DNA from: an uncultured Actinomycetes bacterium
Lineage (GTDB): Bacteria; Actinomycetota; Actinomycetes; Actinomycetales; Microbacteriaceae
DNA length: 64,000 nt
Assembly (NCBI GenBank): GCA_903920435.1
Contig: CAIXMB010000098.1
Location: 1 to 64,000, forward strand
Direction: 5' to 3'
In this document: positions 50,168-62,030 of the stretch, piece after piece
Layout: each line of letters opens with the position of its first letter
Numbering within the stretch: the stretch's first letter is position 1
The notes under the pieces: generated by a model
Database searches by the model: none
What the model saw: the letters and a program-made list of their open reading frames with translations, nothing else
What the model was told of the DNA's origin: nothing
Program-made: the position numbers and the translations under genes

Positions 50168-50722
50168 ATGGCACTATCGCGCAAGCGCCGGAAAGAGCTC
50201 AACCGGCTGAAGAGCCAGGCAGAGGATCTGTGGGAGGACCAGAAGGAACTCCTCGATCACGCATCGAAGGTCGTTCGTGACGCGAGCCGCCAGGCTGCGC
50301 ACTATGCCCGGGAGGAAGTCGGGCCCCGAGTGCGCGACACCTTCGAGGACACGGTGCGCCCCGCGGTGAGTTCCGGCTTCCGCACCGCACGATCCGCGGC
50401 CGAGAGTGGTCGCGAGCGGCTCGTGAGCGATGTGCTCCCGGCGATGAGCTCGGCCCTCGGCACCGCCCTCGCGGCGATCGAGGTGGCGAAGAACCGCCAG
50501 GTGCGCGACGCCCTCAGCCGCGCGACCAAGATCGGAACGGATGTCGGCACGAGCGTCGGCATCATCAAGCCCAAGCCCGCCGGCCCCGGCCGGTACATCC
50601 TCATCGGTGTCGGCGTCGTCGCATTCGCCGCTGTCGCCTACGCGGCCTGGCAGACGCTGCGCGCCGACGACGATCTCTGGATCGACGACGAGCCGGAGAC
50701 CCCGCTGGCCGACGAGGCCTGA
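50168..50722 (+). CDS. hypothetical coiled-coil/TM protein
   Basis: Clean ORF with upstream GGAGG; Lys/Arg-rich N-terminus, helical, one TM. Confidence 0.7.
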   Translation: MALSRKRRKELNRLKSQAEDLWEDQKELLDHASKVVRDASRQAAHYAREEVGPRVRDTFEDTVRPAVSSGFRTARSAAESGRERLVSDVLPAMSSALGTALAAIEVAKNRQVRDALSRATKIGTDVGTSVGIIKPKPAGPGRYILIGVGVVAFAAVAYAAWQTLRADDDLWIDDEPETPLADEA

Positions 50723-50728
50723 CAAGTA

Positions 50729-50742
50729 GTTCCACGTGGAAC
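50729..50742. promoter_or_regulatory. candidate parS site GTTCCACGTGGAAC
   Basis: Perfect 14-bp palindrome with CACGTG core, about 10 kb from oriC. Confidence 0.65.
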
Positions 50743-50766
50743 GCCGGCCCCTCGGGGTCGGCGTTC
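50739..50766 (+). terminator. hairpin GAACGCCGGCCC-CTCG-GGGTCGGCGTTC
   Basis: 12-bp stem with one G.T pair downstream of 50168-50722. Confidence 0.7.
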
Positions 50767-50781
50767 TTCGCGTTTGTGGCC

Positions 50782-50997: not shown

Positions 50998-51058
50998 CTG
51001 CTGATCCTGATCGCCGTCGCTGGGAAGTCGCTGGGGCCGGGGTACCGGGTTAGACGAA

Positions 51059-51085
51059 GAACGCCGCCAAGACCTGGCGGCGTTC
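51059..51085 (-). terminator. hairpin downstream of tRNA-Ala
   Basis: GAACGCCGCCA-AGACC-TGGCGGCGTTC, 11-bp perfect stem. Confidence 0.75.
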
Positions 51086-51094
51086 TCTGGTTTG

Positions 51095-60291: not shown

Positions 60292-60617
60292 GGATCGGTG
60301 GTCTGGGCGTTAATACTGGCACAGCCGGGTGGGCCGCGGACCATGGGTTGTCTCGCTCAAGAATCTGTTCTTTAAAGGGACAACATTCTTAACCGCTGTG
60401 CGAACTGTGAGTAACTCAGCCGAGCACGCTCAAGTGTTGGGAACTACAACGGTGTGAGATGTGGGCGACGCCGTCGAAATGTCGCACAGTCGCGGGGACG
60501 CTGAGGTGAACGCGATTCGTTTTCCACAGAAACGAATTCTGAATGAACAGGTTGTCCGGTGTGTCGCCCTAGTTATCCACAGGTTCTGCACACTGTGTGT
60601 AAACCGCTGCTTGAGAC
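60292..60617. other. oriC: probable oriC (dnaA-dnaN intergenic)
   Basis: DnaA box TTATCCACA at 60573-60581, variant TTTTCCACA at 60520-60528, AT-richer tract 60359-60390. Confidence 0.75.
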
Positions 60618-62030
60618 CTAGCCCTTGTAGCGGTGGTTCTGCTTGATGCGGCTCGTGAGCTCGGTGACCTGGTTGTAGATCGAGCGGCGCTCTTTCATGA
60701 GCTCGGTGATCTTCTTGTTCGCGTACATCACCGTGGTGTGGTCGCGGTTGCCGAACAGCTGGCCGATCTTCGGCAGCGACAGGTTCGTCATCTCACGGCA
60801 GAGGTACATCGCGATCTGTCGTGCGGTGGCCACGGCCTGCGAGCGCGACGAGCCGTACAGGTCGTCGACCGTGAGCTTGAAGTACTCCGCGGTGTGGTTG
60901 ATGATGTCGACCGGTGCGATGACGTTGTCTTCGTCGAGAGTGATGAGGTCTTTGAGCACCGTCTGCACGAGAGCGAGATCGACGGCCGTCTTGTTCAGGC
61001 TCGCGAAGGCGGTGACCCGAATGAGTGTGCCCTCGAGCTCACGGATGTTCGACGACACCTTGGTCGCCATGTACTCCAGGATGTCGTTGCCGATCTGCAG
61101 CTTCTCGCTCTGGGCCTTCTTGCGGAGGATGGCGATGCGGGTTTCGAGATCGGGCGCCTGCACGTCGGTGATGAGGCCCCACTCGAAGCGCGAGCGCATC
61201 CGGTCCTCGAAGCCGGTGAGGTGCTTGGGCGGCAGGTCGCTGGTGATGACCACCTGCTTGTTGTGGTCATGCAGTGTGTTGAACGTGTGGAAGAACGCCT
61301 CCTGCGTCGAATCCTTGCCCTGGAGGAACTGGATGTCGTCGATCAGGAGGATGTCGATCTCGCGGTAGCGCGACTGGAACACCGAGGCCCGGTTGTTCGC
61401 GATCGAGTTGATGAAGTCGTTGGTGAACTCCTCGGAGCTGACGTACCGAACACGGATGCCCGGGTAGAGGCTCTCCGCATAGTGGCCGATCGCGTGCAGG
61501 AGGTGGGTCTTGCCGAGGCCGGACTCCCCGTAGATGAAGAGCGGGTTGTAGGCCTTCGCGGGTGCTTCGGCCACGGCCACGGCGGCCGCGTGCGCGAAGC
61601 GGTTGGAGCCGCCGATGACGAAGTTATCAAAGCTGTACTTGGGGTTGAGCCTCGAGTCCGACCGGCGCGCCTGGCTGTCGATGGGAGGAACAACGGTGGG
61701 CTCGATGTACGGCTGGGAGTCGACGGGATCGATGCTCTGCTCGAGGACGTCGTGCTGGATCTCCGGGTTGACGACAATCGCGAAGTTCGACACCTCCTCG
61801 TCGTCGCTCAGGCCGGCGATGGCGTTGAGCAGGGGCATCCGGATGCGCTGCTCCAGCATGCCGCGGGTGAGCTCGTTGGGCACCTCGAGATAGAGGGTTC
61901 CTGCCATGATGCCCTTGGGCTCGACGAGGTTGATGAAGCCGAGGAGCTGCGGAGTGATGCGGTCATCGGACGTCAGGCGCGACAGCACTGACTGCCAGAT
62001 GCCTCTCGTCGTGTCCGGGGTCTCCGACAT
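60618..62030 (-). CDS. dnaA: chromosomal replication initiator DnaA
   Basis: NPLFIYGESGLGKTHLLHAIGHYAE; IDDIQFLQGKDSTQEAFFHTFN; FGNRDHTTVMYANKKI. Confidence 0.98.
   Translation of the reverse strand: MSETPDTTRGIWQSVLSRLTSDDRITPQLLGFINLVEPKGIMAGTLYLEVPNELTRGMLEQRIRMPLLNAIAGLSDDEEVSNFAIVVNPEIQHDVLEQSIDPVDSQPYIEPTVVPPIDSQARRSDSRLNPKYSFDNFVIGGSNRFAHAAAVAVAEAPAKAYNPLFIYGESGLGKTHLLHAIGHYAESLYPGIRVRYVSSEEFTNDFINSIANNRASVFQSRYREIDILLIDDIQFLQGKDSTQEAFFHTFNTLHDHNKQVVITSDLPPKHLTGFEDRMRSRFEWGLITDVQAPDLETRIAILRKKAQSEKLQIGNDILEYMATKVSSNIRELEGTLIRVTAFASLNKTAVDLALVQTVLKDLITLDEDNVIAPVDIINHTAEYFKLTVDDLYGSSRSQAVATARQIAMYLCREMTNLSLPKIGQLFGNRDHTTVMYANKKITELMKERRSIYNQVTELTSRIKQNHRYKG

Follow-up and report, generated by a model that had tools for sequence, protein, structure and literature searches.

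The window, a stretch of 64,000 nucleotides of contig C98 in a 3.16-Mb draft genome (204 contigs, 96% complete), contains a perfect 14-bp palindrome, GTTCCACGTGGAAC, with the core CACGTG at positions 50729-50742, exactly as described in an earlier note that had proposed it as a candidate parS site. The palindrome lies within a 59-bp gap between two convergent genes, which extends from the stop codon at 50722 to approximately 50782, and begins 6-7 nt past the stop codon of the forward-strand gene at 50168-50722; its intergenic position is thus borne out. The placement near dnaA, about 10 kb from oriC, also agrees with the annotation, in which dnaA occupies 60618-62030 on the reverse strand and DnaA boxes are found at 60573, 62100, and 62195. 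The features of the locus are as follows.

50168-50722, + strand: 184-aa gene, identified as an open reading frame; no Pfam or NCBIfam match
50729-50742, no strand: putative parS site GTTCCACGTGGAAC (C/C variant of GTTYCACGTGRAAC), assigned by sequence match, genome scan, and the orthologous GTTTCACGTGGAAC in the sister genome
50739-50766, + strand: GC-rich hairpin with a 12-bp stem and a 4-nt loop, identified by folding; pairing kept in the sister genome
50782-51135, - strand: small convergent open reading frame, with a likely product start near 50998; it matched no family and was unaligned in the sister genome
60292-62250, no strand: oriC region, comprising the dnaN-dnaA gap, dnaA, the dnaA-rpmH gap, and DnaA boxes
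C98:65351-66268: parA
C98:66268-67218: parB, approximately 15.5 kb from the palindrome

The palindrome is the sole exact match to the parS motif GTTYCACGTGRAAC in the window, and all 14 of the 14 core positions fit, although its outer bases are A..G and not the T..A of the 16-bp parS consensus TGTTNCACGTGAAACA. Its last four bases, GAAC, are simultaneously the first four bases of the hairpin stem. The hairpin folds strongly (z of -5.3 for 50735-50775); its tail, TTCGCGTTT, forms a weak T-tract, and the hairpin was not listed by a consensus terminator scan that needs five T in eight positions. Of the claim in the earlier note that the palindrome overlaps the base of a strong terminator hairpin, the overlap and the strong hairpin therefore stand, and the structure is best regarded as a probable terminator of uncertain strength between the convergent genes. 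A second hairpin in the window, at 51058-51086, has a very similar foot (AGAACGCCGCC), lies next to a tRNA-Ala/tRNA-Ile pair, and is kept in several relatives; the hairpin beside the palindrome may be related to it.

Genomic distribution and conservation

A scan of the whole draft genome for GTTYCACGTGRAAC with at most one mismatch yielded three sites, all on C98, although a further site could be missed in a draft. These comprise the C/C form at 50729 and two copies of GTTTCACGTGAAAC at 64647 and 65344, which lie 14-15 kb from the palindrome and flank rsmG just upstream of parA-parB, the former between jag and rsmG and the latter between rsmG and parA. The scan had been proposed earlier as a means of telling clustering from scatter, and it gave clustering: all three sites fall in a 14.6-kb stretch around dnaA and parAB, and at the same threshold the draft contains no site outside this cluster. 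By chance, approximately 0.023 copies of GTTCCACGTGGAAC are expected per genome and 0.037 copies of the four-member motif GTTYCACGTGRAAC (a Markov estimate from the window), and a Markov estimate for the 15 kb around the two parA-side sites gives approximately 0.0004. The palindrome thus belongs to an oriC- and parAB-proximal cluster of a sequence that is rare elsewhere, as is characteristic of parS.

The same pattern extends to the genus, in which 92 parS-motif sites were found among 27 genomes, 91 of them within 20 kb of the cluster of their own genome. The sole outlier is one GTTCCACGTGAAAC at G025:C1:1840782, approximately 170 kb from the parS cluster. A pair of sites approximately 700 bp apart, like the pair flanking rsmG, recurs in most of the genomes.

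An orthologue of the 184-aa gene is present in all 27 genomes of the genus. In the closest relative, Leifsonia sp. SCN 70-46 (record MEFY01000002.1), GTTTCACGTGGAAC lies directly behind this orthologue at near-equal spacing and is fused to the same hairpin. It is identical to GTTCCACGTGGAAC at 13 of 14 bases, the single change falling where the motif is degenerate. The fourfold-site identity of the adjacent gene between the two genomes is 64%, from which an identity of at least 13/14 under neutral drift has a probability of approximately 0.017. The bases between the stop codon and the site, as well as those beyond the hairpin, have diverged, and substitutions within the stem keep its pairing, such that a G-U pair here corresponds to G-C in the relative and a C-G pair here to U-G. 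Among the 25 other congeners, no parS was found at the orthologous place, and within the genus the C/C form is confined to this genome. The site is dispensable, since these congeners lack it; parS and hairpin both look to have been maintained, but solely in the small lineage formed by this genome and its closest relative.

The cognate ParB and related parS systems

The ParB of this genome is a protein of 316 aa with ParB_N, HTH_ParB, and ParB_C domains and a GERR motif; among solved structures it matches the Caulobacter ParB (6t1f) best. R173 and G201 (Caulobacter numbering) are invariant in ParB and set the preference for parS over the Noc binding site, NBS (PMC7383237). The equivalents here are R181 and G209, so the genome encodes a cognate ParB with parS-type specificity residues; additionally, the equivalents of Caulobacter Q162, G170, S172, N178, and R204 are kept, while K171 is replaced by R. 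An assignment of the palindrome to NBS (TATTTCCCGGGAAATA, with a CCCGGG core) was rejected, since the core here is CACGTG and the ParB has R and G, not the Noc-type Q/R; a Noc model scores the ParB below its cut-off. A second ParB_N match (39.8 bits) was observed outside the origin contig, at G000:C48:2485-2685 (L036), in an open frame of 524 aa, and is perhaps a plasmid- or element-type ParB.

The C/C form is an established parS variant. In P. aeruginosa, parS2 and parS3 are TGTTCCACGTGGAACA, the best-bound sites of that organism, with the same core as GTTCCACGTGGAAC; parS1-parS4 (TGTTCCACGTGGAACA / TGTTCCACGTGGAACC) share with the present site the identical 14-bp core and the clustering near oriC, but belong to another phylum and differ from it in the outer bases, which are A..G here (PMC4368675). 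The M. xanthus consensus, TGTTCCACGTGGAACG, is fitted by GTTCCACGTGGAAC and has the same core and the same 3' G, although 22 sites are found there as opposed to one C/C site here (PMC7022226). A further comparison is C. glutamicum, likewise an actinobacterium with mostly intergenic sites, all near oriC; however, its ten sites spread over 35 kb in a cluster that lies 73 kb from oriC, whereas the three sites here lie within 15 kb straddling dnaA, and against its TGTTNCACGTGAAACA the present site carries the right arm GTGGAAC (PMC7083940). Bases common to parS and a transcription signal are also known from M. bovis BCG, in which parS upstream of gidB lies over a promoter -10 element; there the signal is a promoter beside gidB/rsmG, while here it is a hairpin that resembles a terminator and lies on the opposite side of dnaA (PMC2346475).

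Elsewhere in the Microbacteriaceae, C/C sites occur beside parB, rsmG, parA, or ddl in several genera, with at most four per genome. Some other genera of the family have single C/C copies away from parAB, a few of them apparently inside coding sequence; place therefore counts besides sequence in recognizing parS. In one genus of the family (L131-L135), a recurring pair of C/C 14-mers is separated by hundreds of kb, and from the L131/L132 flanks at least one of the two seems to lie within ABC-transporter-like coding sequence, so that these copies may reflect coding constraint rather than parS. The off-cluster C/C copies were considered as a sign of another regulator, a view that was discarded, as some are in coding sequence and no common operator was seen.

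The fusion of a parS site to a hairpin is unusual but not unique: within the order, a few further parS sites are likewise part of hairpins, a minor pattern that is possibly of interest. Among 165 unique, partly related parS-like sites from relatives, compared with transplanted positions as a control, three lie in extended palindromes, against 0.18% of controls (approximately 0.3 expected). Edge hairpins accompany 5.5% of sites and 3.0% of controls, several of the former being merely two neighboring parS copies; the control is imperfect, since most of its positions fall in coding DNA and terminators abound in intergenic DNA. The enrichment of hairpins at parS is accordingly suggestive, a lead only. 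The individual cases in other actinobacteria are the following inverted repeats.

L025:1483-1530: parS at the tip of a perfect inverted repeat
L115:1490-1525: parS at the tip of a perfect inverted repeat
L022:1491-1524: parS at the tip of a perfect inverted repeat
L014:2920-2965: parS abutting a 13-bp stem

The first three repeats are 34-38 bp long; the repeats are long and GC-rich, and two of the four parS sites are C/C. Like the present palindrome, that of L025 is a C/C site, lies apparently between convergent genes, and stands away from the main cluster of its own genome, in its case by 30 kb. No description of such an overlap was found among the search matches in the literature on parS and terminators. 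A general proposal, that the fusion of parS to a terminator hairpin, or its nesting within one, recurs among actinobacteria, arising from the easy conversion of a terminator palindrome into parS or from mutual help between ParB loading and termination, is regarded as doubtful.

Interpretation of the palindrome

In ParABS systems, ParB that has nucleated at parS turns into a CTP-dependent clamp that spreads, and the complex so formed is acted on by ParA and SMC. We propose, with a probability of roughly 0.93, that the palindrome is a chromosomal parS that would be bound by the ParB of this genome and, with both sites flanking rsmG, would make the origin the handle for segregation. The candidate status given to it by the earlier note is supported by the clustering near dnaA and parAB and by the retention of the site in the closest relative.

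The palindrome could instead be an incidental extension of the hairpin base that happens to match parS and has no ParB role: GAAC in the right arm is shared with the stem, so the hairpin explains part of the symmetry, and 14-bp palindromes of any sequence are common in this GC-rich DNA, with 20 in the window. This is very unlikely given the approximately 0.0004 motif sites expected near the other two parS, and given that the left arm, GTTYCAC, is unneeded by the hairpin and yet is preserved in the sister genome, unlike the diverged bases immediately upstream; a chance match was ruled out by this rarity and conservation. An operator through which some other DNA-binding protein regulates the flanking genes would likewise be palindromic, and copies of the same 14-mer do occur off-cluster in other genera; however, the site follows the stop codon of the first gene and lies 3' of the other, a promoter scan gave no match at the palindrome, the fit to the ParB motif is exact, and the genome has only the palindrome and two obvious parS copies, making an operator extremely improbable.

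A further suggestion, which builds on the remark in the earlier note that ParB binding could affect termination, adds to the parS assignment instead of replacing it, namely that bound ParB blocks RNA polymerase or alters termination, thereby coupling its loading to the expression of the convergent genes. The overlap of parS and hairpin is kept in two species, similar fusions are found in other lineages, and P. aeruginosa ParB at the intergenic parS3/parS4 represses adjacent genes (PMC5521831). Against this, the T-tract of the hairpin at 50739-50766 is weak, and in B. subtilis without Spo0J the expression of parS-adjacent genes is unchanged (PMC7022226); such tuning is considered unlikely.

We therefore return to parS as the preferred assignment. 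The palindrome is almost certainly an ordinary parS, judged by its sequence and context, that is, a well-known kind of element with the small twist of bases common with a hairpin. The clustering, the orthologue in the sister genome, the established C/C form, and the specificity residues of ParB all argue that it is, more precisely, a putative lineage-specific accessory parS to the left of oriC. The site, at the foot of the hairpin between the convergent genes, would have arisen or persisted solely in the lineage that unites this genome with its closest relative. We infer ParB binding, clamp loading, and a role in segregation along the following lines: a ParB dimer would bind the palindrome through its helix-turn-helix domain and convert to a sliding clamp that depends on CTP and spreads along the adjacent DNA, and the palindrome and the two sites flanking rsmG would together turn the origin region into the handle at which SMC is loaded and segregation is driven by ParA. 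As the only parS on the gyrA/gyrB side of dnaA, the palindrome would extend ParB loading across oriC. In C. glutamicum, one parS suffices and ParB spreads up to approximately 16 kb on either side (PMC7083940); comparable spreading from 50.7, 64.6, and 65.3 kb would cover the whole oriC region. The extra site probably makes the system more robust and carries ParB loading over to the gyrA side of dnaA.

For this environmental lineage of the Microbacteriaceae, the analysis provides a compact map of putative parS, in which three sites straddle dnaA, and an example of a parS that appears limited to one small lineage. The bases common to the site and the hairpin would make a clean test case for a possible interaction between termination and the loading of ParB.
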